Assembly: GCF_900110915.1 (NCBI RefSeq)
Contig: NZ_FOFG01000001.1
Span: forward strand, 620,001-684,000
DNA from: Faunimonas pinastri
GTDB lineage: Bacteria; Pseudomonadota; Alphaproteobacteria; Rhizobiales; Afifellaceae
Direction: 5' to 3'
DNA: 64,000 bases
Part shown: positions 7,348-25,982 of the stretch, piece by piece
Layout: every line of letters begins with the position of its first letter
How positions within the stretch are numbered: the stretch's first letter is position 1
Program-made: the position numbers and the translations under genes
The notes under the pieces: model-generated
The model's input: only the letters and a program-made list of their open reading frames with translations
Database searches by the model: none
Told to the model about the DNA's origin: nothing

Positions 7348-7761
7348 TTGAAGTCGCTCTTTCATCTCGCCTACCACGTGACGGACCTCGATGCGGCGCG
7401 GCGCTTCTACGGCGGCACGCTCGGCTGCAAGGAAGGGCGCTCGACCGAGACCTGGGTCGATTTCGACTTCTTCGGCCACCAGATCTCGCTGCATCTCGGC
7501 AAGCCGTTCGAGGTGACCCGCACCGGCAAGGTGGGCGATCACATGGTGATGATGCCGCATCTGGGCGTGGTGCTGGGGCTCGACGACTGGTTCGCGCTGG
7601 CACAACGGCTGGAGCGGGACGGCATCGCGTTCGACATCCCGCCCGTGGTGCGTTTCGAGGGCCAGCCCGGCGAGCAGCGCACGATGTTCTTCTTCGACCC
7701 CTCGGGCAATCCGATCGAGGTCAAGGGCTTCCGCGATTTCGAATCCGTCTTCGCCGCCTGA
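7348..7761 (+). CDS. VOC (glyoxalase/bleomycin-resistance fold) protein, 137 aa
   Basis: A TTG start at 7348 follows a clear Shine-Dalgarno (CTAGGGAGAA). The protein shows the paired beta-alpha-beta-beta-beta modules of the vicinal-oxygen-chelate fold. The first module contains HLAYHVTDLDAARRFYGGTLG with a potential metal His. The second ends in MFFFDPSGNPIEVKGF, where the Glu is the usual last metal ligand. Members include dioxygenases, glyoxalases and epimerases. This subgroup, often labelled glyoxalase or dioxygenase, has no assigned substrate. It is 25 bp downstream of ilvA, possibly co-transcribed, and converges 13 bp from the kinase gene on the other strand. Confidence 0.8.
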   Translation: MKSLFHLAYHVTDLDAARRFYGGTLGCKEGRSTETWVDFDFFGHQISLHLGKPFEVTRTGKVGDHMVMMPHLGVVLGLDDWFALAQRLERDGIAFDIPPVVRFEGQPGEQRTMFFFDPSGNPIEVKGFRDFESVFAA

Positions 7762-7774
7762 GGAGCGCGAGGCT

Positions 7775-9106
7775 TTACGCGGAGGGAGCGCCGGACAGGA
7801 GTCGTTCGAAGAGATCGTCCGAACCCATCTGGCCGCCCTTGAGCATCAGCTCCATCCCGTCCAGATCGTTTTCGCTGTGGGCCCGGCAGACCGTGACCCC
7901 CGGCGAAAGCACCGTCAGGGTGGACAAGCCCCAGATAGGCAGCGCCTTGACGGCGAGGCTCGACGTATCCCCGCCGGCGATCCCGATCCGCCGGAGTGGC
8001 GTGATCCTCAGCACCTCTGTGACAAGCCTCGCGGTCGCAGCGGCGATCGCCCCGGCGCGGCCCGTATCCGATGGCGGGCCTTCCGATGCGGTGTAGGCAA
8101 GCACATGCCGGCCATCGCGAAGGTGGCGGGAAAGGTCGTCGACCACCTTCGTCGCATATGCGTCTTCAACGGCAAGCCTCCCCGCGTCCAGCGCGACATG
8201 CTCGTAGGAACGGGCGGCCTCCACCTGGCGACGCGTCACCGGGGATAGGCTGCCGGCGAGAAGCAGGACCGGACCGCTCGCGGGTCCTAGCTCTCGCGAT
8301 GAGGCAAGGCCCGGGCTCGTGCCGAGCGCCTCCCAATGGGCGGCAAGCGCCTGGGCGACACTGCTGGGGCCGACCGCGAGAAGCGGCTCCCGCTTGGCCT
8401 CGTTCCAGATCAGCCGACCGATGGCCGCGAGATCCTGCGCCTCCGCGAGATCCATCAGGACGGCGCCCGGTTGCGCTCCGAGCAGCGCCTGCAGCGAAGC
8501 TTCCGGCTGATCCGTCCGGTAGGCCGGTGCGTGCAGGCCGACGACGGGCGCGAGGCCCTGCGCCTCCAGATGGAGCCGGAGATCGGCCTCCCGCATCGGC
8601 GTCACCGGATGCACGCTCATCGTCGGATGGCGGTCGATGCGATGGACGGCCCCGGCAGAGCCCGCCCGCGCGAAAAGATTGCTGAAGACGCAGTAGCGGC
8701 CGATATTCGGTTGCCCGCCGACGATCGGCACGAAGGAATTGGCGACGTGCCCCCGAAGCGTCGCGACCGCCGCGCCGATGCTGCCGACATCCGGTGCGCT
8801 GTCGAAGGTCGAGCAGCATTTGTAGTGCAGCACCGAAACGCCGAGTTCCTCGAAGAACTGGCCGACGGGTTCGAGTTCTTCCGCCATCCGTGGGGGAGAC
8901 ATGGTGCGTGACGCGCCGGCGATGCCCGCCGCATCCAGCGGACCGGCGAGTTCCAGCACCCGCCGGTCGGGCACGCCGAGGAACAGCACCGTGCGAAGAC
9001 CGCTGCCGGCGAGCGTCGCCAGCGTATCCGTCGCGCCCGTGAAATCGTCGCCGTACCAGCCGATGCGCGGCACCGGCCGGGCAGGCTCATCAACCGTCCG
9101 TTCCAT
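7775..9106 (-). CDS. Four-carbon acid sugar kinase family (DUF1537), OiaK-like
   Basis: 443-residue ATP-dependent kinase of the DUF1537 family, which phosphorylates tetronates, 3-oxo-tetronates and 3-oxo-isoapionate. The N-terminal motif GWYGDDFTGATDTL and the C-terminal nucleotide-binding GIAGGDTSS and LKGGQMGSDD motifs are all present. The ATG at 9106 is chosen because the family motif begins 15 residues later and the gene follows the RuBisCO-like gene by 5 bp; a longer open frame upstream lies inside that gene. A DUF1537 kinase directly behind a RuBisCO-like protein is the arrangement described for OiaK with OiaX or OiaT in D-apionate degradation, so 3-oxo-isoapionate is the best substrate guess. 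Another four-carbon sugar acid remains possible. Confidence 0.8.
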   Translation of the reverse strand: MERTVDEPARPVPRIGWYGDDFTGATDTLATLAGSGLRTVLFLGVPDRRVLELAGPLDAAGIAGASRTMSPPRMAEELEPVGQFFEELGVSVLHYKCCSTFDSAPDVGSIGAAVATLRGHVANSFVPIVGGQPNIGRYCVFSNLFARAGSAGAVHRIDRHPTMSVHPVTPMREADLRLHLEAQGLAPVVGLHAPAYRTDQPEASLQALLGAQPGAVLMDLAEAQDLAAIGRLIWNEAKREPLLAVGPSSVAQALAAHWEALGTSPGLASSRELGPASGPVLLLAGSLSPVTRRQVEAARSYEHVALDAGRLAVEDAYATKVVDDLSRHLRDGRHVLAYTASEGPPSDTGRAGAIAAATARLVTEVLRITPLRRIGIAGGDTSSLAVKALPIWGLSTLTVLSPGVTVCRAHSENDLDGMELMLKGGQMGSDDLFERLLSGAPSA

Positions 9107-9111
9107 CCGCG

Positions 9112-10380
9112 TCAGGCACCGAAGCGCTGGAGCGCGTGGGCCAATTCCGGCCGTGTCGATGCGTAATCGGCCAGCGTCTCGCCCGCCACCACGGCTTCCC
9201 ACGCCTGCCGCAAGCTGCGGACGCCCGCCGCCGGGCCGTCCGGATGCGCCATGATCCCGCCGCCCGACATGAAGAGGAGGTCGGTGTTGCCGATTTCCTT
9301 GAAGGTGACGGGCGCGGTGCCGGCCCATTGCCCGGAGGAGAAGGCGGGCATCACGCGGTCGTCCGCCGTCTCAGACATCCGGGTCAGGCAATCGTGGGCG
9401 GAGGAAACGACCTCTTCGTCGGTCTGCGCGAATTTTCCCTGCAGTCCGTGAACATGCATGTGGTCGACACCGGCGAGACGCCACATCGCCTGATAAGCCC
9501 CGAATGAGATACCCAGCAGCGGGTGGCGCGAAAAGGCGCCGTAGCCGTTGCGGTGACCGTGCAGGACGAGGTCGGTGTGCCGGCGCAGCGTCTGCACCGC
9601 CGAGAAGCCGCACCAGTTCAGGCTCACCATCGCGCAGGTGCCTTCTTCCCGCGCGATCAGGTCGGCATGCCGACGCATGGCGTCGGTCTCGTCGGTGATG
9701 TTGAAGGCGACCATCACCGCCTTGCCCGTGCGGTCGCGGTGCCGGCGCACGCGCTCCATCACCGCCGGGATACGCTGGGCCAGCGGCGCATGGAGCGGGT
9801 CGGCGCAGATTTCGTCGTCCTTGATGAAGTCGAGCCCGGCCCCGCACAGCTCTTCCACGATATCGGCCGTCTGCTCCGGCGAGAGGCCGACATTCGGCTT
9901 GATGATAGAGCCGATCAGCGGCCCCTGGGTGACGCCGGTCAGCGCCCGCGTTCCGGCAAGGCCCTGAGCAGGCATGTCGAACGTATCGCGATAGGCGGAC
10001 GGCAGGGTCAGCGTTTCCAACCGCAGGCCGGTGACCTCGCCGAGATCGAAGAGGTTGCCGCCGACCGTTGCCGCGAGGCTCGGCAGGTTGGTGCCGACAT
10101 TCGCGACGGGAAAGCTGATGCGGATGTGCGCGCGCCGCCACGGGCCGGTCACCTGCTTGCGGTCGAGCCACGCATTGGGCAGGCTCGGCACATCCACCGG
10201 CGTCGGATCGGTCTCGACCGCCTCGACGGTGGCACGGGCCCGCTGCCTCAGCTCGTCGGTTTCGCCATGGACACGAGTGAAGGTGCCGCAGGATTGCTCG
10301 CCCGCCATGATCTCCGCGATCTTGGCGGGATCCAGAGGCGTCTCGATGAGATACGTCGCCTCGAAGCGATCGTCGCGCAT
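9112..10380 (-). CDS. RuBisCO-like protein (form IV), OiaX/OiaT-like
   Basis: 422 residues with the RuBisCO large-subunit fold. The catalytic Lys in SIIKPNVGLS is kept (K161, equivalent to K175), but the second Lys of KPK is Asn (N163). The metal site KDDE is intact with carbamylatable K187, D189 and E190. HGHRNG carries the H294/R295 equivalents, loop-6 Lys is K316 in GLQGKF, and SGGG (from 372) should bind phosphate. Loss of the K177 equivalent argues against true CO2 fixation. Among RuBisCO-like proteins, partnership with a DUF1537 kinase points to 3-oxo-isoapionate-4-phosphate decarboxylase (OiaX) or the transcarboxylase/hydrolase (OiaT). The sequence alone does not separate the two for me. 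The gene lies 2 bp after the VOC gene and 5 bp before the kinase. Confidence 0.85.
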   Translation of the reverse strand: MRDDRFEATYLIETPLDPAKIAEIMAGEQSCGTFTRVHGETDELRQRARATVEAVETDPTPVDVPSLPNAWLDRKQVTGPWRRAHIRISFPVANVGTNLPSLAATVGGNLFDLGEVTGLRLETLTLPSAYRDTFDMPAQGLAGTRALTGVTQGPLIGSIIKPNVGLSPEQTADIVEELCGAGLDFIKDDEICADPLHAPLAQRIPAVMERVRRHRDRTGKAVMVAFNITDETDAMRRHADLIAREEGTCAMVSLNWCGFSAVQTLRRHTDLVLHGHRNGYGAFSRHPLLGISFGAYQAMWRLAGVDHMHVHGLQGKFAQTDEEVVSSAHDCLTRMSETADDRVMPAFSSGQWAGTAPVTFKEIGNTDLLFMSGGGIMAHPDGPAAGVRSLRQAWEAVVAGETLADYASTRPELAHALQRFGA

Positions 10381-10382
10381 GA

Positions 10383-10922
10383 TCAGAGCCTGCCGAGATC
10401 GGGGAAGGGGCGCACGGGATCGTTGCCGTCCCAGGTCTCGGAGGCTTCGCGGATCAGGCGGAACATCTCGCCCTTGGGGCCCGCCACTTCGGAAAGCTCG
10501 ATCACGGTGCCCGGATGATATTCCGTGTCGAAATAGACGAAGCGGCCGTTGCGGCCGACCTCGCCGCTCATCGCGATTTCGAAACCCTGGCCGGTGAGGC
10601 GGACGACGTCTTCGTCAAAGCTCTCGGTCCAGTAGGCGACGTGCTGCAGGCCGGTGCCGCTCGCCTGCTTGAAGTCGCGGTACATGGACGGCGCATCGTT
10701 GCGGGTCTGGATCAGCTCCACCTGCATAAAGCCGGAATTCGCCAGCGCGACGGAATTGTGCACGTCGTAGGCCTCGCCGCGATAGCGGTAGTTCTCTATC
10801 GGAACGCGTTCATTGTAGAAGAACGGACCGACGCCCAGCACGCGGCTCCAGTAGTCCATCGCCTGCTCGATATCGTCGACAACATAGCCGAGCTGGCGGA
10901 TCTGACCGAGAAAACGGCTCAT
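10383..10922 (-). CDS. VOC-family protein, 179 aa, in the RuBisCO-like operon
   Basis: Vicinal-oxygen-chelate fold protein in glyoxalase/epimerase style. The N-terminal module is RQLGYVVDDIEQAMDYW, continuing with VLGVGPFFYNERVP and FMQVELIQTRND. The second module begins GLQHVAYWTESFDEDV and ends YHPGTVIELSEV with a Glu at the metal position. The ATG at 10922 is fixed by the module start 11 residues in; a longer open frame upstream belongs to the TRAP gene region. It is placed between the TRAP transporter and the RuBisCO-like gene (2-bp spacing). It probably catalyses an isomerisation, epimerisation or lyase step of the same sugar-acid route, but the reaction is not known. Confidence 0.75.
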   Translation of the reverse strand: MSRFLGQIRQLGYVVDDIEQAMDYWSRVLGVGPFFYNERVPIENYRYRGEAYDVHNSVALANSGFMQVELIQTRNDAPSMYRDFKQASGTGLQHVAYWTESFDEDVVRLTGQGFEIAMSGEVGRNGRFVYFDTEYHPGTVIELSEVAGPKGEMFRLIREASETWDGNDPVRPFPDLGRL

Positions 10923-10951
10923 CGAACACTCACTTCGAAAGGGAAAGGGGA

Positions 10952-12889
10952 TCAGAGAAGGCCCGTCGAGAACCACGGCACGGCGGCGACCAGGAACAGG
11001 CCGACCAGCAGGGCTGCGATGTAGCCCCAGACGTGGCGGAGGCCCTCGTCGGGATGGATCCGGCTGATGGCGCAGGCGCCATAATAGCCGACGCCGAAGG
11101 GCGGGGCGAAAAGGCCGATGCCCATCGCGAAGATCACCACCATGGCATAGTGGACCTCGTTGACGCCGATGGCCTTGGCGATCGGGAACAGCAGCGGGCC
11201 GAAAAGCACCATGGCCGGGATGCCTTCCAGCACCGAGCCGAGGATGATGAAGGCCACGATGGATACCGCAAGGAAGCCGTAGGTTCCGCCGGGAATGCCG
11301 GCCATCCACTGCGCCAGGTTCTGCGAAAAGCCGGATTGTGTCAGGCCCCAGGCCATGGCGGTGGCGCAGCCCACGATCATGATGATCGCGCCCGTCAGGA
11401 CCGCCGTGTCGATCAGCATCGGCATGAGGCGCGACCAATCGAACTGCCGGTAGATCACGAGGCCGATCACGACGGAATAGACCACGCCGATGGTGGAGAC
11501 TTCGGTTGCCGTCGCAACGCCCTCCACCACGGCGGCGCGGATCACGAAGGGCAGCAGGATCGCGGGCAGGGCCACGAGGAAGAGCTTGGCGATCTCGCGC
11601 GCCCGGGGCTTGCTGATCGCGCTCAGGTCCTCTTTCCGGTAGCGCCACCAGACCACGGCGCAGAGCATCGCACCCAGCACGCAGGCCGGAATGAGGCCGC
11701 CGGTGAAGAGCGCGGCGATGGAGACGCCGGTGACCGAGCCGATTGTGATCAGCACGATGGAAGGCGGCACGGTTTCAGTCTGCGCGCCTGTGGCGGCCAG
11801 CAGCGCTACGAGTTCGCCGGGCTTTGCGCCTCGCTTCTGCATTTCCGGGAAGAGCACTGGCGCGATGGCGGCCATATCGGCGATCTTGGAGCCGGAAATG
11901 CCGGACACCAGATACATCGCCGCGATCAGCACATAGGAGAGGCCGCCGCGCACATGGCCGAGCATGCTCGCCAGGAACTGGATCATGGCGCGTGCCATGC
12001 CCGTCATCTCGATCAGCGCGCCCAGGAAGATGAAGAGCGGCACGGCCAGGAGCATCAGGTGGCCCATGCCTTCATCGAGCCGCCCGACCATCACCAGCAT
12101 GGGGGTGGAGGTTGTCAGCGCGAGGTAGGCAAAGGTGGAGAGCGCGAAGGCGAAGGCGATCGGCACGCCAGTGAAGACGCAGGTCGCGACCAGCCCGACA
12201 AAGAAGATCAGGAGGTTGATCTGGCCGAGAGGCTTGAGCCAGGGGCCCGCCGCCCAGAAGCAGGCGGCCACAACCAGCGTCACGACCACCGCGCCCATGA
12301 CCGGACGCCAGCCGATTTCCCGGGGCAGGCGGAAAAGCCGGAGCAGCGCCGCAACCATCATCAGTGCGATGCCGGTGGGGATGGCAGCCGCCCGCCAGGC
12401 ATTGCTGATTTCCAGCGCCGGGGTGACGATGAAGCTTTCCTCGTTGGCGTAGTCGATGGCCTCGGGAAGGATCAGGATCAGGAAGGCGAGGGGGGCCGCG
12501 ACCGCAAGCGCTTCCAGAAAGGCGCGCGTTGCCGGGCGAACCCGGGTCACCAGCCCTGTCATCCGCATGTGGTCGCCACGCCGCAGCGCCGCCACGGCGC
12601 CCAGCATGGAAAGCCACAGGAACAGGATGCCCGCGAGCTCATCCGACCAGACGAGCGGGCTCTGGAACACGTAGCGCGCGACGACGCCGGCAAAGAGGAT
12701 CACGATCTCCGCCACGACCAGCGCCGCGGCGGCCCCTTCGACCAGGAGCCGAAGCCAATGGTCGAGCCGCTCAACGATCGGCAGCCGTGGTGAACGCCGG
12801 GGCGTCGAGCCCGCACCGCTCTCGACGCCGAGGCTGCCGGCATTGACCAGATCCGGTCCGCGGACCGCCTCCTCCGTGTCGGCCAGCAT
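10952..12889 (-). CDS. TRAP transporter fused DctQ-DctM permease
   Basis: 645-residue inner-membrane protein joining the small DctQ subunit (about residues 40-200, with WSDELAGILFLWLSMLGA) and the large DctM subunit (about 210 to the end). The DctM part shows GVPIAFAFALSTFAYLAL, AVPLFIFLGALIEMTGMA, the HVRGGLSYVLIAAMYLVSGISGSK stretch and a C-terminal FAPPFGVGYYGA. The start at 12889 overlaps the binding-protein stop by one base (TGATG). Codons upstream of it in the same frame lie inside the dctP gene and are not used. Fused QM permeases are a known TRAP variant. Na+-coupled uptake of a carboxylate-bearing sugar acid is expected, fitting the kinase and RuBisCO-like enzyme downstream. Confidence 0.92.
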   Translation of the reverse strand: MLADTEEAVRGPDLVNAGSLGVESGAGSTPRRSPRLPIVERLDHWLRLLVEGAAAALVVAEIVILFAGVVARYVFQSPLVWSDELAGILFLWLSMLGAVAALRRGDHMRMTGLVTRVRPATRAFLEALAVAAPLAFLILILPEAIDYANEESFIVTPALEISNAWRAAAIPTGIALMMVAALLRLFRLPREIGWRPVMGAVVVTLVVAACFWAAGPWLKPLGQINLLIFFVGLVATCVFTGVPIAFAFALSTFAYLALTTSTPMLVMVGRLDEGMGHLMLLAVPLFIFLGALIEMTGMARAMIQFLASMLGHVRGGLSYVLIAAMYLVSGISGSKIADMAAIAPVLFPEMQKRGAKPGELVALLAATGAQTETVPPSIVLITIGSVTGVSIAALFTGGLIPACVLGAMLCAVVWWRYRKEDLSAISKPRAREIAKLFLVALPAILLPFVIRAAVVEGVATATEVSTIGVVYSVVIGLVIYRQFDWSRLMPMLIDTAVLTGAIIMIVGCATAMAWGLTQSGFSQNLAQWMAGIPGGTYGFLAVSIVAFIILGSVLEGIPAMVLFGPLLFPIAKAIGVNEVHYAMVVIFAMGIGLFAPPFGVGYYGACAISRIHPDEGLRHVWGYIAALLVGLFLVAAVPWFSTGLL

Positions 12890-13908
12890 CAGGCGAGCTT
12901 TCCGACCGAGCCTTCCAGCAGGCTCCAGGCCTCTTCGCCGAAGCGGCCCTTCCACTCCGTGTAGAAGCCGGCGTCCCGCAGCTTGGCGCGGAAGGTATCC
13001 GGCGCGGGCGAGTTGAAGGCCAGCCCCTTGGACTTGAGGTCCGCGACCACCGTGTCGTTCAGTGCCTTGATGTCCTCGCGCTGCTTGGTGCCCGCCTCGT
13101 TGAAGGCGGTGTGGATGATGGTCTGCAGATCGGCCGGAAGCCCGCGCCATGTCCGGCCGTTGAAGATGAACCAGTAACCGTCCCAGATGTGGTTTGTCAG
13201 GGCGCAGGATTTCTGCACCTCGTAGAGCTTCGCCACCTGGATGATCGGCAGCGGGTTCTCCTGCGCGTCGACGATCCTGGTTTGGAGCGAGGAATAGACT
13301 TCGCTGAACTGCAGGCTGGCGGGCGACGCGCCGAGGCCCTTGAACATGGAGATCGAAAGCGGGCTGACCGGCACGCGGATCTTGAGGCCGCTCATGTCGG
13401 CGGCCGTCTCGATCGGCTTGCCGCTGGTCGTCATCTGCCGGAAGCCGTTGTCCCACACCTTTTCGAAGGTGAAGAGGTTGGCCTTGGCGATCGCGGCGCG
13501 GACGAAGGAGCCGACCTTGCCGTCCATCGCGCCCCAGACCTGATCGTAATTGGCGAAGGCGAAGCCGACGGCGCTGATGGCCGCGACCGGTACCAGAGTG
13601 GCTATCACGAGCGCGGAAGGCGTGAACATCGTGATGCCGCCGGAGCGCACCTGCGCCAGCATGTCGGTGTCGCCGCCAAGCTGGTTGTTCGGGAAGATCT
13701 GGATCCGGACGCGGCCGTTGGATTCCTTGGCGACGCGATCGGCGGCTTCCTGCGCGCGGATGTGCAGCGGATGCGTTACGGGCAGGTTGTGACCGTATTT
13801 GAGGTCGAACTCGGCGGCTCTGGCGATGCCGGGCAGGCCGAAGGTAAACGCCGCGGCGGGCGCTGCAGCCATGGACCTGAGCACGGTCCGGCGCGAAATC
13901 GACATCAT
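12889..13908 (-). CDS. TRAP transporter substrate-binding protein, DctP family
   Basis: 339 residues. The N-terminus has a twin-arginine-like signal (SRRTVLRSM followed by a hydrophobic AAAPAAAFTFGLPG and an ARAAEF cleavage region), so it is probably exported folded. The DctP family features are GHNLPVTHPLHIRAQEAADRV, the FPNNQLGGD motif, GLKIRVP with the conserved Arg that binds the ligand carboxylate, and DAQENPLPII. It is the first gene of the minus-strand operon that continues with the QM permease, VOC protein, RuBisCO-like protein and kinase. The TTGACA hexamer and dyad upstream probably drive it. Two adjacent ATG codons are possible starts. Confidence 0.92.
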   Translation of the reverse strand: MMSISRRTVLRSMAAAPAAAFTFGLPGIARAAEFDLKYGHNLPVTHPLHIRAQEAADRVAKESNGRVRIQIFPNNQLGGDTDMLAQVRSGGITMFTPSALVIATLVPVAAISAVGFAFANYDQVWGAMDGKVGSFVRAAIAKANLFTFEKVWDNGFRQMTTSGKPIETAADMSGLKIRVPVSPLSISMFKGLGASPASLQFSEVYSSLQTRIVDAQENPLPIIQVAKLYEVQKSCALTNHIWDGYWFIFNGRTWRGLPADLQTIIHTAFNEAGTKQREDIKALNDTVVADLKSKGLAFNSPAPDTFRAKLRDAGFYTEWKGRFGEEAWSLLEGSVGKLA

Positions 13909-14026: not shown

Positions 14027-15097
14027 ATGCAGCAGCAGGGTGACGATGCATCGGGTAAGCGCTCCCGCCGCACGCAGCTTGCCAGCGTGAGCGACGTGGC
14101 CGAGCGTGCCGCGGTATCGCCCGCCACGGTCGATCGCGTTCTCAACCGGCGCCCCGGCGTGCGGCCGGCCACGGTCAACCGCGTGCTCAAGGCCGCCGTC
14201 GAACTCGGCTATATCCCGGAATCGGAGATCGAGGCGGCCAGGCCGGGCAAGCCGATCCGGGTCACCTTCCTGCTGCCCGCCGGCAGCAACCGCTTTCTGT
14301 CGATGCTGGGCCGCTCCATCGTGGCGGCGGGGGAGACGATGGCCCGCTCGGACGTCAGGGCCAAGGTCGAGTTCGTCGAAAGCTTCAACCCGGATCTTCT
14401 CGCCCGACAATTAAGGGAGCAGGGCCGGAACGCCGATGGGATCGCCTTCATGGCGATCGAGCATCCGGCAGTTCGCGAGGCCGTGAACGATCTGGCGGAA
14501 CGCGGGGTGCCGGCCGTCACGCTGATCTCCGACATCGCGAATTCCCGCCGCGCCGCCTATCTCGGGCTGGAGAACCGTTCCGCCGGGCGCACCGCCGCCT
14601 CGCTCCTGTCCCGCTTCATCGGGCGGCGGCCCGCGACGGTCGCCATGATCGCGGGCTCGCGCAGCTATCGGGCGCATGAGGAGCGCGAGATGGGCTTTCT
14701 CCACTTCCTGGAGGAGATGGCACCGGAGGTGCAGGTGGTGGGCCTCCGCGAAGGTCTGGACGAGGAAGCCCGTAACTATCGCCATACCCGGACGCTGATC
14801 GGGCAATATCCGGATCTCGACGGCATCTACAATATCGGCGGCGCGCCGGAAGGCGTGGCCAAGGCGCTGAAGGAAGCCTCGCGCGACCGTGAGATCGTCT
14901 TTGTCGGCCACGGACTGACGCTGAACACGCGCGGCCTTCTTCTCGACGGCACGATGGATGCGGTGATCACCCAGAATCCATCGCGGACGATTGCCGCCTG
15001 CGGGGCGATCTTTGCCAATATCCGTGGCGGCGCCGACCCGTTGCAGGGCGTGGAACCGCTGCAAACGGAGATCATCCTGCGCGAGAACCTGCCGTGA
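14027..15097 (+). CDS. LacI-family transcriptional regulator
   Basis: 356 residues. The N-terminal helix-turn-helix and hinge helix are clear: LASVSDVAERAAVSPATVDRVLNRR, with the VNRVLKAAVELGYIP hinge. A periplasmic-binding-protein-like sensor domain follows (VTFLLPAGSNRF, DGIAFMAIEHPAVREAV, YNIGGAPEGVAKAL, and a C-terminal DAVITQNPSR). It is divergent from the TRAP / RuBisCO-like / kinase operon, with 118 bp between them, and overlaps the downstream dld start by 4 bp (GTGA). It therefore probably controls the sugar-acid operon and dld in response to a sugar-like effector. About 17 residues precede the canonical HTH start. Confidence 0.9.
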   Translation: MQQQGDDASGKRSRRTQLASVSDVAERAAVSPATVDRVLNRRPGVRPATVNRVLKAAVELGYIPESEIEAARPGKPIRVTFLLPAGSNRFLSMLGRSIVAAGETMARSDVRAKVEFVESFNPDLLARQLREQGRNADGIAFMAIEHPAVREAVNDLAERGVPAVTLISDIANSRRAAYLGLENRSAGRTAASLLSRFIGRRPATVAMIAGSRSYRAHEEREMGFLHFLEEMAPEVQVVGLREGLDEEARNYRHTRTLIGQYPDLDGIYNIGGAPEGVAKALKEASRDREIVFVGHGLTLNTRGLLLDGTMDAVITQNPSRTIAACGAIFANIRGGADPLQGVEPLQTEIILRENLP

Positions 15098-16914
15098 CCG
15101 CCGAAGTCCCGATGTCCGGAGAAAACCCCATGCTTGCAGCTTCCGAATGGCCCGCGGCGGCCTCGGTCGGATCGCGGAACGACCGAAACCGACTCATTTC
15201 GGATCTGCGATCCATCGTCGGCAGGAAGCATGTCCTGACGGAGGAAAGCGCGACGCGTCGCTATCGGACGGGATTTCGCTTCGGCTTCGGCCGCGCACTG
15301 GCGGTGGTGCGGCCCGGTTCGCTCGTGGAGCAATGGCGGGTGCTGAAGGCCTGCATCGAGGCGAACGTGATCGTCATCGCGCAGGCCTCCAACACCGGCC
15401 TGACGGGGGGCTCGACCCCGGATGGTAACGATTACGACCGCGATCTCGTCATCGTCAGCATGTCGCGGATGAAGACGATCCACGTCATCGAGGGCGGCGA
15501 GCAGGTCGTCTGCCTGCCCGGCGCCACGCTGGACCAGCTTGAGCGCGAATTGCTGCCGCTCGGGCGCGAGCCGCATTCGGTGATCGGCTCCTCCTGCATC
15601 GGCGCGTCGGTCTTTGGCGGCGTCTGCAACAATTCCGGCGGCTCGCTGGTGCAGCGCGGGCCGGCCTACACCGAGATGTCCGTCTTCGCGCGGGTGGACG
15701 AAGCGGGGCACCTGCACCTCGTAAATCACTTGGGCATCCGGCTGGACGGCTCGGAGGAGGAAGTCCTCGGCCGGCTGGACAACGGCACGTTCTCGGAAGG
15801 CGACGTGCTGCGCGATGCGGGGGCGGGCCACGATCATGGCTATGTCCGGCACGTGCGCGAGATCGAGGCGGCGACGCCCGCGCGCTTCAACGCGGATCCG
15901 GGCCGCCTCTTCGAATCGTCGGGGTCAGCCGGCAAGGTTATGGTCTTCGCCCTGCGGCTGGATACGTTCCCCATCGCGAGGAACGCCAGGGTTTTCTACA
16001 TCGGCACCAACCGGACCGAGGAACTCACCGACATCAGAAGGGCCGTCCTCGGCGAATTCGAGCACCTGCCGATTTCGGGCGAATACCTGCACCGGGATGC
16101 GTTCCGGGTGGCCGAAACCTACGGCAAGGACACCTTCCTGATGGTGCGTCATCTCGGCACCGCGCGGCTGCCCGGCCTCTTCGCGGCCAAGGCACGCTGC
16201 GACGCCATTCTCGACCGGATACCGTTTCTGCCCCGGCATCTCACCGACCGTATGATGCAGGCGGCAAGCCGACTTTTCCCGAGTCATCTGCCGCCCCGGA
16301 TGAGGGATTACGACAGGCGGTTCGAGCACCATCTGCTGCTGAAGGTCAGCGAGGAAGGGGCGGAGGAGGCGCGTCGCTTCCTGATGCGCTACTGCGAGAC
16401 GGCGACCGGCGCGTTTTTCGAATGCACGCCCGACGAAGGCGGCAAGGCGTTCCTGCACCGCTTTGCGGCGGCCATGGCCGCCAACCGCTACCGCGCGATC
16501 CATACCGGCAGCGTCGAGGATATCCTCGCATTGGACATCGCCCTGCCGCGCAACGAACGCGACTGGCTGGAAACATTGCCGCCCGAGATCGATGATCGGA
16601 TGATCCTCAAGCTCTATTACGGCCACTTCCTCTGCCACGTGTTCCACCAGGACTACATCGTGAAGAAGGGCAATGACTGCATGGCCCTGGAACATGAGAT
16701 GTGGAAGCTGCTGGACGAGCGCGGCGCCGAATACCCGGCCGAGCACAATGTCGGCCACATGTACGTCGCCAAGCCGGCGCTTCGCGAGCACTACCGCAAT
16801 CTCGACCCGTGCAACTGCTTCAATCCCGGTATCGGCCACACGTCGAAGGCGGCGAAGCATGGAAGAGAGGGCTCGCCATTGCCTTCATCACCTCCGACCT
16901 CGACGAGATCATGA
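15094..16914 (+). CDS. dld: FAD-dependent D-lactate dehydrogenase (quinone type) with an aberrant C-terminal tail
   Basis: 606 residues versus about 570 for E. coli Dld, a membrane-associated flavoprotein oxidising D-lactate to pyruvate and passing electrons to quinone. Visible features are the FAD-binding segment ASNTGLTGGSTPDG, VCLPGATLDQLE, SSCIGASVFGGVCNNSGG, and a C-terminal domain ending NPGIGHTSKAAKH, where E. coli Dld also ends in an NPGIGKTSK motif. The last 17 or so residues (after KAAKH, from about 16861) are read out of frame through a remnant of a sugar-transporter ATPase, so the natural stop has been lost. The GTG start at 15094 overlaps the lacI stop; internal ATGs at 15112 and 15130 are alternatives. 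Activity on glycolate cannot be excluded. Confidence 0.88.
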   Translation: MTAEVPMSGENPMLAASEWPAAASVGSRNDRNRLISDLRSIVGRKHVLTEESATRRYRTGFRFGFGRALAVVRPGSLVEQWRVLKACIEANVIVIAQASNTGLTGGSTPDGNDYDRDLVIVSMSRMKTIHVIEGGEQVVCLPGATLDQLERELLPLGREPHSVIGSSCIGASVFGGVCNNSGGSLVQRGPAYTEMSVFARVDEAGHLHLVNHLGIRLDGSEEEVLGRLDNGTFSEGDVLRDAGAGHDHGYVRHVREIEAATPARFNADPGRLFESSGSAGKVMVFALRLDTFPIARNARVFYIGTNRTEELTDIRRAVLGEFEHLPISGEYLHRDAFRVAETYGKDTFLMVRHLGTARLPGLFAAKARCDAILDRIPFLPRHLTDRMMQAASRLFPSHLPPRMRDYDRRFEHHLLLKVSEEGAEEARRFLMRYCETATGAFFECTPDEGGKAFLHRFAAAMAANRYRAIHTGSVEDILALDIALPRNERDWLETLPPEIDDRMILKLYYGHFLCHVFHQDYIVKKGNDCMALEHEMWKLLDERGAEYPAEHNVGHMYVAKPALREHYRNLDPCNCFNPGIGHTSKAAKHGREGSPLPSSPPTSTRS

Positions 16915-17517: not shown

Positions 17518-18243
17518 TCAGGAAAACAGTTCCGGCTTTTCCCTTAGCAGCACCTGGATCGTCTTGAAGACCTCCTCCAGGTGAACCTTCATGGCCTGTC
17601 CCGCGAGGGTCGGGTCGCCCAGGCGGATCGCGTCGACGATATCGGTGTGCTGCTCGATCAGGATATGCAGATGATCGGGCGACGGCAGGCTGAGATAGCG
17701 GACGCGGTCGAGCTGGCCCTTGACGCTCTGGATCACCTTCCATGCGCGCGGCATGGACACGCTGTCGCTGATCGCGCGGTGGAATGCCTCGTCGAGGACC
17801 ATGAAGCGGGCGGCGTCGCCGGCCACGATCGCCTCGGCCTGTTGGGCGAGAAAGCCCTGCAGCACCCGCACCGACGCGGTCTCCGGCTCCTCGGCCAGTC
17901 GCGCGGCGATCGCCGTTTCCAGCGCCTCGCGCAGGAAGCGGGCTTCCATGACCTCCGCCAGCCGGATCGGCGAAACAAACGTGCCCCGTTGCGGGAAGAT
18001 GTCGACCAGGCCCTCGTCGGCCAGCCGGATCAGCGCCTCCCTGACGGGGGTTCGGCTGACCCCTATGCGCAGGGAGAGCTCCTTCTCGCTGAGCGCTTCC
18101 TTGGGCTGGAGTCGCATCGTCAGGATCGCGTCCCGCAACCAGGCGTGCACCTGGCCGGTGATCGGCAGCTTCAAGTCGATGGGCAGATCGAGGGACGCTC
18201 TCTGCACGCTCTTCACCCTTGGTCGTCGTCGCGCGTCTCGCAC
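17518..18243 (-). CDS. GntR-family regulator, FCD (FadR/UxuR) subfamily
   Basis: 241 residues. The winged helix-turn-helix spans about residues 30-95 (LRDAILTMRLQPKEALSEKE, then GVSRTPVREALIRLADEGLV and FPQRGTFVSP). The FCD effector domain follows, with EARFLREALETAIAARLAE and the His/Asp-rich metal pocket residues in DEAFHRAI and LIEQHTDIVDAI. This subfamily senses carboxylates, including hexuronate intermediates. It is divergent from a dehydrogenase / TRAP / mannonate dehydratase operon and probably represses it from the palindrome at 18293-18310. The ATG at 18243 leaves about 25 residues before the HTH; a shorter start is possible. Confidence 0.9.
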   Translation of the reverse strand: MRDARRRPRVKSVQRASLDLPIDLKLPITGQVHAWLRDAILTMRLQPKEALSEKELSLRIGVSRTPVREALIRLADEGLVDIFPQRGTFVSPIRLAEVMEARFLREALETAIAARLAEEPETASVRVLQGFLAQQAEAIVAGDAARFMVLDEAFHRAISDSVSMPRAWKVIQSVKGQLDRVRYLSLPSPDHLHILIEQHTDIVDAIRLGDPTLAGQAMKVHLEEVFKTIQVLLREKPELFS

Positions 18244-18287
18244 GAAAGGCGCTCGATTACCACTCCAGTGCCTGTCATATCACGCAA

Positions 18288-18316
18288 TTGACGCACTACC
18301 ATGGTAGTGCTACAGC
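18288..18316 (+). promoter_or_regulatory. Promoter with perfect 18-bp palindromic operator (FCD-GntR target)
   Basis: GCACTACCATGGTAGTGC at 18293-18310 is an exact 18-bp palindrome. A -35-like TTGACG (18288-18293) abuts its left edge and a weak -10-like TACAGC (18311-18316) its right edge, at 17-bp spacing, so a bound dimer would block RNA polymerase. It lies 67 bp before the dehydrogenase ATG and 50 bp upstream of the divergent regulator start, the expected place for an autoregulated FCD-GntR operator. Confidence 0.7.
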
Positions 18317-18376
18317 GGTCAAAAGATCTCGCGAAATCGAGAGAACTCGCAAGAGTTGGGCCGAGGAAATGAACCG

Positions 18377-19393
18377 ATGAGCGCTGTCTCCATCCGCGAG
18401 CCGCATCACCTTCAGCTTCTTTCCTGCGAGCCGACCGAGCCCGGGCCGGGGGAGATCAGGCTTCGCGTGCAGCGTGGCGGCATCTGCGGATCCGACATGC
18501 ACATCCTTCACGGCGCCAATCCCTTCGCGAAATATCCGCGCGTGATCGGTCACGAATTCGCCGGAACGGTGGATGGCGTGGGCGAGGGCGTTACCGGCCT
18601 CGCCGAGGGCGACCAGATCGTCGTGGATCCCGTCGTCTCCTGCGGCCACTGCTATCCCTGCCGGATCGGGCGTCCCAATGTCTGCGCCAATCTCGAAGTC
18701 ATGGGCGTGCACCGCGACGGCGGCTTTCGCGAGTACATCACCATTCCCGCGGCGAACGCGGTGCGGGTTTCCCCGGCGCTGCCGGTCGAGATCGCGGCGC
18801 TGGCCGAACCGTTCTCGATCGCGGCCAACGTCCTTTCGCGGACCGGATGCGGGCCGGAGGACACCGTCCTGGTCTATGGCGCGGGCACCGTTGGCCTGAC
18901 GGTCCTGCAGGTCGCCAGGCTCAAGGGGGCGCGCGTGATCGTGGCGGATCCCGATGGGCAGCGGCTCGCCCGCGCGGAGAGCTTCGGGGCCGACCGGCTC
19001 CTTAGGACGGGGCGCGACGATATCCCGGCCAGCGTGGCGGGCGAGACGGAGGGGCTCGGCCCCACGGTCGTGATCGACGGGGCAGGCATTCCCGCTCTGC
19101 TGGAGGAAGCCTGCCGGGTCGCGAGCCCCGCGGGGCGGATCGGCGTCCTCGGCTTCTCGCCTGCGCCCTGCAACGTCTCGCAGCAGGAGATCGTGAAAAA
19201 GGAGCTGACGCTGTTCGGCTCGCGCCTGAACCGCAAGCTGCTGCCGGAGGTGGTCGGCTGGCTGGAAGACGGGCTCCTCAAGCCCGCGGCCATGATCACC
19301 CAGACCTATCGCGCTGAAGACGCGAAGGCTGCCTTCGACCTGATCGAGGCAGCGCCGGACCGCACGGTGAAGGTCCAACTCGCCTTCAACTGA
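18377..19393 (+). CDS. Zinc-dependent MDR dehydrogenase, L-gulonate/L-idonate 5-dehydrogenase-like
   Basis: 338 residues from the ATG at 18377, which has a good Shine-Dalgarno (CGAGGAA); an in-frame TTG 21 bp upstream is less likely. Medium-chain dehydrogenase motifs are GICGSDMHILHG (catalytic-zinc Cys), GHEFAGTVDGVG (zinc His and Glu), the structural-zinc cluster CGHCYPCRIGRPNVC, and the Rossmann loop VYGAGTVGL. The HEFAG and ICGSDMHI patterns resemble RspB/YjjN-type sugar-acid dehydrogenases. With mannonate dehydratase in the same operon it may oxidise L-gulonate (to fructuronate) or a similar aldonate. A fructuronate reductase is not seen in the window, so the route is incomplete here. 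Confidence 0.85.
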   Translation: MSAVSIREPHHLQLLSCEPTEPGPGEIRLRVQRGGICGSDMHILHGANPFAKYPRVIGHEFAGTVDGVGEGVTGLAEGDQIVVDPVVSCGHCYPCRIGRPNVCANLEVMGVHRDGGFREYITIPAANAVRVSPALPVEIAALAEPFSIAANVLSRTGCGPEDTVLVYGAGTVGLTVLQVARLKGARVIVADPDGQRLARAESFGADRLLRTGRDDIPASVAGETEGLGPTVVIDGAGIPALLEEACRVASPAGRIGVLGFSPAPCNVSQQEIVKKELTLFGSRLNRKLLPEVVGWLEDGLLKPAAMITQTYRAEDAKAAFDLIEAAPDRTVKVQLAFN

Positions 19394-19447
19394 GCGACCA
19401 GAAGAACCGGGTCCACAAGGCCCCGGACATAACAGGGAGGAAGACGA

Positions 19448-20440
19448 ATGAAGGACTTTCCGATCTCGCGCCGCACGTTCGTCGGCGGCGCCGTCGCGGC
19501 CGGGTTTGCCCCGGCGATCATCCGTCCGGCTCGTGCGGCGGGCCGGACGCTGAAGCTCGGTCACCTCGCCAACGAGGAGAACAGCTGGCACAAGGCCTCG
19601 CTGAAATTCGCCGAGGAGGTGAAGAACCGCACCAACGGCGAAGTCGAGGTGCAGGTCTTCCCGAACGAGCAGCTCGGCAAGGAAACCGATCTCATCAAGG
19701 GGATCCAGCTCGGCACGGTGGATTTCACCATCACGGGTGAGTCGCTGCAGAACTGGACGCCCTACGCCTCGCTTCTCGCGACCCCCTACGCCATCCGCGA
19801 CCTCGACCAGATGAAGACCGTCGTGGACGGCCCGATCGGGGAGAAGATCGCCGCCGCCGTCCGGGACAAGGCCAAGCTGGTGCCGCTGACCTGGTTCGCC
19901 CGTGGCCCGCGCGAGCTCACCTCCAACACGCCGATCAAGACGCCCGCCGATCTCGCGGGCCTGAAGATGCGCGTGCCGAACGTGCCGCTCTTCGTGTCCT
20001 TCTGGACGGCGCTGGGCGCCAAGCCGACCCCGATGGCCTTCTCCGAAGTCTTCACCGCGCTGCAGAGCCATGTGATCGACGCGCAGGAGAACCCGCTGGC
20101 GCTGATCCGCTCGGCGAGCTTCAACGAGGTTCAGAAGTATACGAATCTCACCGATCACGTGCTGAGCTGGATCTATCTGGCGACGGGCGAGCACACGCTG
20201 AGGAAGCTGACGCCCGACCAGCAGAAGGCGCTGCGCGATGCGGCCAAGGTGGCGCAGGACTATGAGCGCGAGCTTTTCCTGGCGGACGAAAAGCGCTTCC
20301 GCTCCGAGCTGGAGAAGGGTGGCATGACCTTTGTCGAAGTGGACAAGAAGGCCTTCGCCGAGAAGGGCAGCCAGGCGGTTCTCGCTTCGCTGAACCCGGA
20401 AGTCGTCCCCCTCTACAAGGAAATCGTGGCCGCCAAATAG
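19448..20440 (+). CDS. TRAP transporter substrate-binding protein, DctP family (hexuronate-type cluster)
   Basis: 330 residues preceded by GGGAGGAAGA. The N-terminus ISRRTFVGGAVAAGFAP carries a twin-arginine-like motif. Family features are LKLGHLANEENSWHKAS, the VFPNEQLGKETD motif, GLKMRVPNVPLF with the carboxylate-binding Arg, and DAQENPLALI. Together with the following DctQ and DctM it forms a tripartite importer, presumably for an aldonate or hexuronate given uxuA at the end of the operon. It resembles but is clearly distinct from the DctP at 12889-13908. Confidence 0.92.
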   Translation: MKDFPISRRTFVGGAVAAGFAPAIIRPARAAGRTLKLGHLANEENSWHKASLKFAEEVKNRTNGEVEVQVFPNEQLGKETDLIKGIQLGTVDFTITGESLQNWTPYASLLATPYAIRDLDQMKTVVDGPIGEKIAAAVRDKAKLVPLTWFARGPRELTSNTPIKTPADLAGLKMRVPNVPLFVSFWTALGAKPTPMAFSEVFTALQSHVIDAQENPLALIRSASFNEVQKYTNLTDHVLSWIYLATGEHTLRKLTPDQQKALRDAAKVAQDYERELFLADEKRFRSELEKGGMTFVEVDKKAFAEKGSQAVLASLNPEVVPLYKEIVAAK

Positions 20441-20456
20441 GCGAGGCTCCACGGCA

Positions 20457-20485
20457 GGAGCGTTCGGCGCCGTGCCGGGCGCTCC
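20457..20485 (+). other. Intercistronic hairpin between dctP and dctQ
   Basis: GGAGCG (20457-20462) and CGCTCC (20480-20485) can form a 6-bp stem with a GC-rich loop in the 92-bp gap between the binding protein and DctQ. There is no T-run, so it is better read as an mRNA-processing or stabilising element favouring binding-protein expression than as a terminator. Confidence 0.45.
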
Positions 20486-20532
20486 ATGAGAACGCCGGGT
20501 AACGGCGCGGTTTCGGAGGGGAGAAACGGATC

Positions 20533-21027
20533 ATGAGAAAGGTACTGGGCGCGGTGGTCTCCGCGCTTTCGGCCATCTGCAAGGCCGGGACCCTGCTGTC
20601 ATTCGCGGTGCTGATCTGCGTGGTGACGGTGCAGGTGCTCGGGCGCGTGCCGGGGATCTCGGCTCCCGCCTGGACGGAGGAAGTCGCCCGTTTCGCGCTG
20701 CTTTATCTGGTCGCCTTTTCCTGCGGTCTTGCCGCCCTCTATGGCGAACTCGTCAACGTCGATCTCGTCACCAACGCGCTTCCGGCGCCGGTGCAACTGG
20801 TGATTTCCAAGATCGTCGACATCATCGTGGTGCTGTTCTGCATCATGATCGCGCCGGGCGCCTACGGCTACGTCGTCAACAGCGTCGGCGAGCGGGCGCG
20901 GTCCTTCGACATGCCGATGACCCTGGTCTACGTCACGATCTTCATCATCCCCGTCGCCCTGGCGGTCTTCACCATCGCGCGTCTTCTCGGGTTCGGCCGG
21001 CCGATGCAGCACGAGGAGATGATCTGA
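20533..21027 (+). CDS. TRAP transporter small permease subunit, DctQ family
   Basis: 164-residue membrane protein with four hydrophobic segments, the usual DctQ topology. The family signature region reads SAPAWTEEVARFALLYLVAFSCGLAALYGELVNVD, with the conserved acidic-containing W-x-EE-x-x-R. The Shine-Dalgarno GGAGGGGAG is strong. Its stop overlaps the DctM start by one base (TGATG), so the two membrane subunits are translationally coupled. Confidence 0.92.
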   Translation: MRKVLGAVVSALSAICKAGTLLSFAVLICVVTVQVLGRVPGISAPAWTEEVARFALLYLVAFSCGLAALYGELVNVDLVTNALPAPVQLVISKIVDIIVVLFCIMIAPGAYGYVVNSVGERARSFDMPMTLVYVTIFIIPVALAVFTIARLLGFGRPMQHEEMI

Positions 21028-22301
21028 TGCTGATCGCGGCGCTTTTCGGCACCTTCGTCGTCTGCCTGCTTCTCGGCGTTCCCGTCGCGGTGACGCTGGG
21101 AGTTTCCTCCGTCGTCTATCTCTGGCTGGCCGGCATCGACCTGACCGTGGTGGCCCAGTTCCTGTATTCCGGCATGGACAGCTTCGTGCTGCTCTGCATC
21201 CCGGGCTTCGTACTGGCCGGCAACCTGATGAATGGCGGCGGCATCACCGACCAGATCGTCCGCTTCGGCAATTCGCTCTTCGGTCACATCCGCGGCGGGC
21301 TGGGCCTTGCCAACGTAACGGGCTCGATGATCTTCGCCGGCATCTCCGGCACGGCGGTGGCGGAAACCGCCTCCATCGGCGCGGTCATGATCCCCGCCAT
21401 GAAGAAGGCGGGGTACGGCGCGGCCTTTTCCGCCGCGACCACGGCCGCCGCCTCCACCGTCGGACCCATCATCCCGCCCAGCGTTCCCATGATCATCGTC
21501 GGCACGCTGACGGGTCTTTCCGTGGGCCGCATGTTCATGGCCGGCGCGGTTCCCGGTCTCCTGATGGGGCTCGGCATGATGCTGACGGTCTACATCGTCG
21601 CCCGCATCCGCAACTATCCGAAGGGGGAGTGGAAGGGTTTCCGCGAGGTGCTCTCCTCCGGCAAGTCGGCGATCTGGGCGATCCTGATGACGGCGATCAT
21701 CCTGTTCGGCATCGTCGGCGGCTACTTCACCCCGACTGAAGCCTCGATCGTCGCCTGCATCTACGCCTTCATCGTCGGCCTTTTTGTCTACAAGGGCTTC
21801 ACCCTGCGCGATCTGCCCCGGATCATGCTGGACAGCGCGATCGGCTCGGGCGCGCTGATCCTTCTGGTCGGGCTTGCCAGCGTCTTCGGCTGGATCCTGA
21901 CCAGCGAGCAGATCCCGCAGACCATCGCCAATGCGATGCTGTCGCTGACGACCAACAAGTACCTGATCATCCTCCTGATCAACGTCCTGCTGCTGATCGT
22001 CGGCACCTTCATGGAAACGATCGCGGCGCTGATCATCCTGTTTCCGCCGCTTCTGGCAGTGGCGGTCAAGGTCGGGATCGATCCGATCCACTTCGCCATG
22101 ATCGCGGTGATCAACCTAATGATCGGCCTTACAACGCCACCGGTCGGCATCTGCCTTTTTGTGGCCGGCAATATCGGCAAGGTGACCCTCGGTCAGGTCA
22201 GCCGCGAGATCGGTCCCTTCCTGATCTGCAACATTCTGGTGCTGATGCTGGTGTCGTTCGTGCCGGCCATTTCGCTCTGGCTTCCGAGCCTGTTCTTCTA
22301 A
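21027..22301 (+). CDS. TRAP transporter large permease subunit, DctM family
   Basis: 424-residue, highly hydrophobic transport subunit of the ion-transporter superfamily. Landmarks are GTFVVCLLLGVPVAVTLG at the N-terminus, IPGFVLAGNLMNGGG, the HIRGGLGLANVTGSMIFAGI helical hairpin, AAASTVGPIIPPSVPMIIVG in the substrate/ion region, and the second hairpin GLTTPPVGICLFVAG near the C-terminus. It completes the importer with the two preceding genes. Confidence 0.94.
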   Translation: MLIAALFGTFVVCLLLGVPVAVTLGVSSVVYLWLAGIDLTVVAQFLYSGMDSFVLLCIPGFVLAGNLMNGGGITDQIVRFGNSLFGHIRGGLGLANVTGSMIFAGISGTAVAETASIGAVMIPAMKKAGYGAAFSAATTAAASTVGPIIPPSVPMIIVGTLTGLSVGRMFMAGAVPGLLMGLGMMLTVYIVARIRNYPKGEWKGFREVLSSGKSAIWAILMTAIILFGIVGGYFTPTEASIVACIYAFIVGLFVYKGFTLRDLPRIMLDSAIGSGALILLVGLASVFGWILTSEQIPQTIANAMLSLTTNKYLIILLINVLLLIVGTFMETIAALIILFPPLLAVAVKVGIDPIHFAMIAVINLMIGLTTPPVGICLFVAGNIGKVTLGQVSREIGPFLICNILVLMLVSFVPAISLWLPSLFF

Positions 22302-22322
22302 CCGGGATCCCCGGATCCCGGT
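22301..22322 (+). other. Perfect 22-base inverted repeat between dctM and uxuA
   Basis: ACCGGGATCC (22301-22310) and GGATCCCGGT (22313-22322) are exact complements separated by two C. The left arm starts on the last base of the dctM stop. No U-tract follows, so a processing or stability hairpin, or a protein-binding dyad, is more likely than a terminator; uxuA starts 39 bp later. Confidence 0.55.
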
Positions 22323-22361
22323 ATCGCAGTATCCCCCGACGCAATCCCAAAGAGAGACAAC

Positions 22362-24727: not shown

Positions 24728-24853
24728 CCCAAAGGGTAGTCAGGCCTCCAAACGAGGCGGATGATCCCGAAATGATCGCGCCCTCGACCTTCGGACATGT
24801 CCGTAGCCGTGGTCACAAGCGGCGAGGCGAGGGCGAGACGAAGAGGAGAACAG

Positions 24854-25897: not shown

Positions 25898-25904
25898 CCC
25901 GACG

Positions 25905-25932
25905 ATGCCGGGGGAGCTCCGTCCCCCGGCAT
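25905..25932 (+). other. Strong intercistronic hairpin between dctP and dctQ (third system)
   Basis: ATGCCGGGGG (25905-25914) pairs perfectly with CCCCCGGCAT (25923-25932), a 10-bp GC-rich stem with an 8-base loop, 8 bp after the binding-protein stop. No U-run follows. It probably protects or attenuates the transcript so that binding protein exceeds membrane subunits, as at 20457-20485. Confidence 0.65.
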
Positions 25933-25982
25933 GAACCGCCTCGACGCTCGCCCCTCGAAACGCCGCCGTCAGGGATTTCCCG

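Follow-up and report, generated by a model that had tools for sequence, protein, structure and literature searches.

A 64,000-nucleotide stretch of the Faunimonas pinastri genome (RefSeq assembly GCF_900110915.1, contig NZ_FOFG01000001.1, positions 620,001 to 684,000; hereafter, the window) encodes an importer, a vicinal oxygen chelate (VOC) protein, a RuBisCO-like protein (RLP), and a DUF1537-family kinase in a single operon, divergent from the gene for a LacI-type regulator. These genes are conserved together in other genomes, the RLP falls in a clade of its own in which catalytic residues are kept, and relatives of the cassette have exchanged the RLP–kinase pair. By sequence comparison, the cassette is a conserved variation on the kinase–RLP pairing, distinguished by an RLP clade and a VOC partner of its own. 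With confidence a little short of even, we propose that it is a LacI-controlled, redox-neutral catabolic unit, in which a branched sugar acid would be processed by the VOC protein, phosphorylated by the kinase, and cleaved by the RLP. Among the open-access papers searched, no description of this LacI–importer–VOC–RLP–kinase arrangement was found.

Gene content and conservation of the cassette

The five minus-strand genes occupy positions 13908–7775 in one tight operon and are spaced, in order, by −1 (a TGATG overlap between dctP and dctQM), 29, 2, and 5 nt. The first two encode a tripartite ATP-independent periplasmic (TRAP) importer: the solute-binding protein DctP (12889–13908; PF03480, 256 bits; predicted local distance difference test score, pLDDT, of the model 85.7) and DctQM (10952–12889), in which the small and large permeases are fused in a single frame (DctQ 97 bits, DctM 346 bits). 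The VOC-fold protein follows (10383–10922; Glyoxalase_4, 88 bits; model pLDDT 93.4), then the RLP (9112–10380; RuBisCO_large, 236 bits, E 5e-70) and the kinase (7775–9106; SBD_N 169 bits, NBD_C 100 bits). Gene content and positions are as first noted in a preliminary description of this DNA, and the profile scores make the domain families firm. The divergent LacI-type gene (14027–15097, plus strand; LacI 50 bits, Peripla_BP_4 126 bits) belongs to the catabolic unit. Across 103 LacI–transporter intergenic regions, some of which come from loci that overlap, no conserved LacI operator emerged; the most frequent of the perfect 10-base palindromes occurred in seven.

Conservation was read from 80 named loci, the best 80 among the matches listed, whose RLPs are 59–76% identical to the window RLP. 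The kinase is present in all 80, the VOC protein in 77, and the LacI regulator in 74; two of the loci missing a VOC gene are contig ends (L123 and L144) and one is a genuine miss (L143). The VOC protein is about as well conserved as the RLP (64–82% identity across the 77 loci) and is, by this sequence evidence, a fixed partner of the window RLP clade. The preliminary description had set the VOC protein and the fused TRAP permease apart as extra elements outside the known scheme; the VOC protein is no extra in this cassette, being kept in nearly every locus. TRAP importers of type A were found in 52 loci and of type B in 14, with neither in the remaining 14. Among these 14, the sequence of L096 and L110 starts within a TRAP permease gene, and that of L123 and L144 starts at the RLP. 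The order importer–VOC–RLP–kinase recurs in annotated plasmids of Azospirillum, Roseomonas, Neorhizobium (with an additional dehydrogenase gene ahead), Paracoccus, Paroceanicella, Sulfitobacter, Alloyangia, and a Comamonadaceae strain, and record titles place the cassette widely in soil- and plant-associated Alpha- and Betaproteobacteria. The D-apionate entry genes ApnO and ApnL were found in none of the 80 loci, and no locus with both a VOC gene and ApnO was present among the loci collected.

Placement and catalytic residues of the RLP

The RLP, the sole RLP or RuBisCO found in its own genome, matches the protein of PDB entry 3nwr at 621 bits, a match that is not due to chance. Its nearest curated model is OiaX (3-oxo-isoapionate-4-phosphate decarboxylase), at 430 bits against an NCBIfam cut-off of 700. 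The kinase scores 305 bits with the model for OiaK (3-oxo-isoapionate kinase; cut-off 700) and 169 bits with the 3-oxo-tetronate kinase model, both below cut-off. The preliminary description had matched the pair to OiaK with OiaX or OiaT; OiaX and OiaK are indeed the nearest curated models, but the RLP itself is not an OiaX. When the OiaX model was run over 394 genomes of the order, 24 held RLPs at 757.8–791 bits and the next match stood at 487.7, with a gap between. Trees were computed from 108 and 86 RLP rows and 87 kinase rows, chosen from 152–175 RLPs and 169 kinases collected; the L334 RLP, whose match is interrupted, and the L257 kinase were left out. In the 86-row tree, the window RLP, 3nwr, and the VOC-linked rows, excepting the swapped loci described below, form one clade (32 rows, support 100/100), and OiaX forms another (11 rows, 100/100). 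A 33-row set (100/97) takes in most of the RLPs whose clusters contain ApnO, ApnL, or NanR, together with four rows linked to a short-chain dehydrogenase and ten swapped rows. The placement against OiaX that had been proposed as a check thus puts the RLP outside the OiaX clade. Three further RLPs (L243, L245, and L253), found without a nearby kinase match, sit on a long branch in the 108-row tree.

The window RLP carries K161-P162-N163, K187/D189/E190, and the loop-6 K316, which bears out the early observation that the metal ligands and loop-6 Lys are intact while Asn replaces the second Lys of the KPK motif. Asn163 stands at the position of Lys177 in the presumed RuBisCO numbering. This position is Asn in 111 of 111 window-clade rows, 3nwr included, and Ser in all 37 of the other non-OiaX rows and 10 of 10 swapped rows, while OiaX has Ala in 8 rows and Ser in 3; Asn163 is thus a mark of the clade and not a quirk of one protein. 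RuBisCO positions 60, 123, and 327 are Glu, Asn, and His in 110, 111, and 111 of the 111 window-clade rows, the window RLP among them, and Asp, Gly, and Gln in all 11 OiaX rows; the rows in these counts are not all independent. The counterpart of RuBisCO S379 is Ser348 by alignment, and that position does not enter the counts used here. The low model score, the separate clade, and these three positions rule out OiaX as the identity of the RLP. Assignment as a RuBisCO carboxylase fails on Asn163 in place of Lys177 and on a score of 232 bits against the form III cut-off of 497.

The apionate-linked RLPs outside OiaX, presumably OiaT, are 47–55% identical to the window RLP and share its residues at 60, 123, and 327; they differ in Ser at position 163 and in having ApnO, ApnL, or NanR beside most of them. 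Position 163 is the one exception among the catalytic residues, which are otherwise as in these proteins; within the 37 other rows, three have lost Glu204 and three His294. OiaT is a transcarboxylase/hydrolase, and we infer that the kept hydrolysis residues are a mark of the OiaT type. In the cluster around oiaX in R. etli, one gene encodes a relative of triose-phosphate isomerase and another a D-erythrulose-4-phosphate isomerase (258 bits, cut-off 240). Among loci of at least 9 kb, relatives of the first were seen at 6 and of the second at 4 of the 10 OiaX loci; the corresponding counts are 0 and 0 for the 96 window-clade loci and 0 and 1 for the 35 other RLP loci. Because the OiaX product needs these isomerases, their absence from the window clade, together with the intact hydrolysis residues, is suggestive of an RLP of the transcarboxylase/hydrolase type and not a decarboxylase. 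Such a reaction is described for OiaT; it yields 3-phosphoglycerate and glycolate, both of which pass straight into central metabolism. On a Haloterrigena plasmid (L063), genes for an RLP, a kinase, an ApnO relative, enolase, and pyruvate kinase lie close together, a set that would fit 3-phosphoglycerate as the RLP product.

Exchange of front and back ends in related loci

A VOC protein close to that of the window was found in 15 of 242 genomes of one genus, probably Bradyrhizobium, and all 15 neighbourhoods were examined. Four encode a window-type RLP (66–73% identity). Eleven carry the same LacI regulator, TRAP type A importer (permease 72–76% identity), and VOC protein (74–77%), followed by an RLP of 51–54% and a kinase of 36–38% identity. 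Ten of these swapped RLPs were placed and form a single clade inside the apionate-linked set; forcing them together with the window clade was rejected by the approximately unbiased (AU) test (p-AU 0.0104), for which the group was defined after the position of L185 in the 108-row tree had been seen. Their kinases nest among apionate kinases, and for the two that were tested the OiaK model gives 551 and 530 bits, well above the 305 of the window kinase. Searches for ApnO and ApnL in a genome of the swapped type (G483) gave no match, while the positive controls G290 and G294 gave both. Because the VOC–TRAP front end works with apionate-lineage enzymes in the absence of the apionate entry genes, it would supply a 3-oxo-isoapionate-like acid: very probably, it delivers the substrate of those enzymes, 3-oxo-isoapionate or a close analogue. 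The swap also suggests that the window cassette shares the intermediate 3-oxo-isoapionate-4-phosphate or a near analogue, and an intermediate resembling this compound is likely.

Eight loci pair the VOC protein and a kinase with a PdxA-family gene and a DhnA-type class I aldolase, in place of an RLP (L192, L194, L297, L298, L299, L304, L305, and L306). Their importers are TRAP type A in six and type B in two, and most have a DeoR regulator. Two of the PdxA proteins were tested and score 319 and 320 bits (cut-off 290), while the one aldolase tested falls below every cut-off, so that for it the superfamily assignment alone is safe. The kinases of these loci fall outside the window kinase clade, and the VOC–kinase–PdxA–aldolase cassettes seem to constitute a separate, uncharacterised route. 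At L303, VOC and PdxA stand alone in the stretch covered. A third kind of front end is seen in six RLP–kinase pairs that have a short-chain dehydrogenase in place of ApnO or the VOC protein (L062, L064, L065, L189, L229, and L231). More distant VOC relatives (49–50% identity) occur at L300 and L302 with neither RLP nor kinase, near a gene that looks by eye like a cytochrome P450.

Proposed route and alternative readings

The structure nearest to the predicted VOC protein is 3gm5 (Z 17.3, root mean square deviation 2.3, 139 aligned), which is a putative methylmalonyl-CoA epimerase; further epimerases of this kind come next, with glyoxalase I and hydroxymandelate synthase (Z about 12–13). It is not a methylmalonyl-CoA epimerase proper, scoring 25.5 bits against the TIGR03081 cut-off of 114.95. 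Residues Q11, E70, H95, and E143 do not vary among the 30 proteins aligned and fall at the presumed metal-ligand positions of the epimerase. Human glyoxalase I, which is a metal isomerase, binds its metal through Gln/Glu/His/Glu; the dioxygenases use another set. The modelled fold and the four filled ligand positions are thus those of a metal-dependent VOC isomerase. We propose that the VOC protein forms a 2-hydroxy-3-oxo acid. Either a branched uronate would undergo aldose–ketose isomerisation, or a hydroxymethyl group would migrate, as in the isomerase half of the ApnO reaction.

We infer the substrate, the VOC reaction, the position of the phosphate, and the RLP products as follows. The TRAP importer would take up a branched-chain sugar acid. 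As the core of the cassette has no redox gene, we propose that this acid arrives at the oxidation level of a carbonyl, as the uronic acid corresponding to apiose would; the route would then need no redox step, which would explain why dehydrogenase and lactonase genes are missing. The VOC protein, as a metal-dependent isomerase, would convert this acid to a 2-hydroxy-2-R-3-oxo-4-hydroxybutanoate (3-oxo-isoapionate if R = CH2OH), of which the DUF1537 kinase would phosphorylate O4. On the resulting carboxy-keto acid, the RLP would carry out the late half of RuBisCO chemistry, carboxyl transfer and hydrolytic C–C cleavage, to yield 3-phosphoglycerate and a small acid (glycolate if R = CH2OH, or perhaps lactate).

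The importer offers a hint to the ligand. The nearest structure to DctP is 4oan (RPB_2686 of Rhodopseudomonas palustris HaA2; 61% identity, 426 bits), with the next at 156 bits. The 4oan structure was reportedly modelled with (S)-2-acetolactate. The carbon skeleton of 2-acetolactate is that of 3-oxo-isoapionate less two hydroxyls. A review (PMC5812351) includes 2-acetolactate in the TRAP ligands of Vetting et al. and does not name the protein. The binding proteins of the type B TRAP and ATP-binding cassette (ABC) importers have nearest structures at only 150 and 116 bits, which are uninformative on the ligand.

Several observations weigh against this route. For the VOC reaction that we propose, we know of no precedent, and aldose–ketose isomerisation is, to our knowledge, not known in the VOC fold. 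The close orthologs of 4oan (81–87% identity) lie apart from any RLP in three of three loci read (L180, L181, and L195); at L180, the adjoining gene looks by eye like an acyl-CoA synthetase. Between the LacI and VOC genes of L080, L089, and L113, three of the 14 loci with neither TRAP type, lies an ABC transporter of the amino-acid type instead of a TRAP importer, which is unusual for a sugar acid; its domains were confirmed at L080 (SBP_bac_3, two permeases, and an ATPase). The window-clade RLPs differ from the apionate-linked ones not only in Asn versus Ser at position 163 but also at position 256, which is Trp in 102 of 111 rows versus Ser or Ala in 33 of 37, and the window-type kinases form a clade separate from the apionate kinases, so that R may differ from CH2OH. 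The swapped RLP–kinase pair may be promiscuous. Finally, 4 of 10 OiaX loci are without both isomerase relatives in the stretch read, and the absence of these genes is weak evidence.

A wider form of the proposed route, which we regard as rather doubtful, would have the cassette serve redox-neutral use of branched plant cell-wall uronic acids of the apiuronate or aceric-acid type, by way of a VOC-fold aldose–ketose isomerase, a DUF1537 kinase, and a third functional RLP clade besides OiaX and OiaT. Its front end (importer and VOC protein) and back end (window-type RLP–kinase, apionate-type RLP–kinase, or kinase with PdxA and aldolase) would be exchanged as modules.

The alternative that survives best, though unlikely, keeps the same machinery with another side chain, as in aceric acid (R = CH(OH)CH3), from which the RLP would form 3-phosphoglycerate and lactate. 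Aceric acid is the 3-C-carboxy-5-deoxy-xylose of rhamnogalacturonan II. The clade-specific residues at 163 and 256 and the separate kinase clade are consistent with it, as is the occurrence of PdxA with a DhnA-type aldolase, which by decarboxylation and aldol cleavage would release acetaldehyde instead of formaldehyde, which is more toxic. Directly behind the LacI gene, the window also encodes a membrane D-lactate dehydrogenase (15094–16914, plus strand; PRK11183, 937.8 bits, cut-off 391). This gene is not conserved, with a partial match in just one locus (L136) among L041–L149, and was dropped as a product-use gene of the unit; a stereochemical reading would, moreover, make the product L-lactate. 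The apionate lineage of the swapped RLP–kinase pair favours R = CH2OH, and no direct tie between the cassette and aceric acid was found.

Quite improbable is a linear four-carbon acid as the substrate, with the VOC protein interconverting 2-oxo- and 3-oxo-tetronate, the kinase forming 3-oxo-tetronate-4-phosphate, and the RLP decarboxylating it to dihydroxyacetone phosphate. Isomerisation, phosphorylation, and decarboxylation of the tetronate type are carried out by OtnI, OtnK, and OtnC; DUF1537 kinases act on 3-oxo-tetronate, and PdxA, which eight loci have where the RLP would be, uses phosphates of four-carbon acids as substrates. However, the kinase scores higher with the OiaK than with the 3-oxo-tetronate model, and the enzymes exchanged into the swapped loci are of apionate lineage. 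A plain decarboxylase would also need no hydrolysis residues: three were lost in OiaX, a decarboxylase, and they are kept in 110–111 of 111 window-clade rows.

Canonical D-apionate catabolism, with an OiaX or OiaT, an OiaK, and apionate oxidation genes elsewhere in the genome, is more improbable still. It draws on the best curated matches and on the close kinship of the apionate-linked RLPs, and the kinase's score decides little, since the OiaK cut-off is narrow and kinases of true apionate clusters also miss it (473 bits beside R. etli oiaX, 575 in Microvirga). Against it, the RLP scores far below the OiaX cut-off, with the range 488–757 bits empty over the 394 genomes, and the VOC protein is left without a role. 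Searches that recovered both ApnO and ApnL in G290 and G294, relatives in the same family, gave no match in the window's own genome, and neither gene is present in the 80 cassettes; we reject D-apionate catabolism by this cassette on these grounds. The preliminary description, which had reported the upstream oxidation genes as absent, is upheld on that point. Its reading as D-apionate/3-oxo-isoapionate catabolism stands as to the family of chemistry, given the nearest models and the Bradyrhizobium swap, and falls as to D-apionate itself; the variant route or different 3-oxo sugar acid that it offered in addition was the better half of the statement.

A role in methionine salvage or another known form IV function (2,3-diketo-5-methylthiopentyl-1-phosphate enolase or the methylthioribulose type) is extremely improbable: the proteins share a superfamily, but the MtnW-type models score only 157 and 133 bits, far under their cut-offs of 409 and 513.6 and under the OiaX score, so that the methylthioribulose-type placement named beforehand as speaking against the apionate reading was not borne out, and the operon holds no salvage genes and has a kinase and importer that do not fit.

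Relation to known systems and neighbouring genes

A route for D-apionate that employs OiaK together with OiaX, an RLP decarboxylase, was reportedly described by Carter et al. in 2018. The cluster for the OiaX pathway in R. etli CFN 42 likewise has a DUF1537 kinase adjoining the RLP. It differs from the window in that the latter has no ApnO, ApnL, or sugar dehydrogenase, with a VOC protein and usually a TRAP importer instead, in the separate RLP clade that keeps the E60, N123, and H327 lost in OiaX, and in the absence of erythrulose-phosphate isomerase relatives from window-clade loci. The threonate and erythronate pathways employ OtnK or DtnK with OtnC or PdxA2. They have the kinase superfamily in common with the cassette, and the eight loci above have a PdxA-family gene where an RLP would stand; in contrast, the window kinase scores nearer to OiaK, and its last step is an RLP. 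The same-clade RLP of PDB 3nwr carries a molecule name that gives no reaction. PMC11747546 reports a cluster of genes for D-apiose and growth on this sugar, which is the canonical pathway and not the VOC–RLP cassette.

Elsewhere in the window, a second, unrelated-looking VOC protein (7348–7761, plus strand; Glyoxalase, 42 bits) is convergent with the kinase, 14 nt from its stop. A second sugar-acid cluster at 17518–23546, with a GntR regulator, a zinc dehydrogenase, another DctP with permeases, and a UxuA mannonate dehydratase, looks like one for hexuronate use. A third TRAP set, judged by eye, lies behind a LysR gene at 24797–27883, making the window rich in TRAP importers, and chaperone, usher, and spore-coat-U-like genes, also judged by eye, stand in a row at 31973–36094 (plus strand).

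The proposal gives an RLP clade that has a crystal structure, 3nwr, and no known reaction a concrete and testable role. The RuBisCO catalytic set may serve catabolic carboxyl transfer and C–C cleavage, with the single positions 60, 123, 177, and 327 separating the clades. Given the spread of the cassette in soil- and plant-associated Alpha- and Betaproteobacteria, the acid that it acts on may be a common one of plant origin, and the exchangeable front and back ends would make the chemistry tractable by pairing known enzymes with the VOC step.

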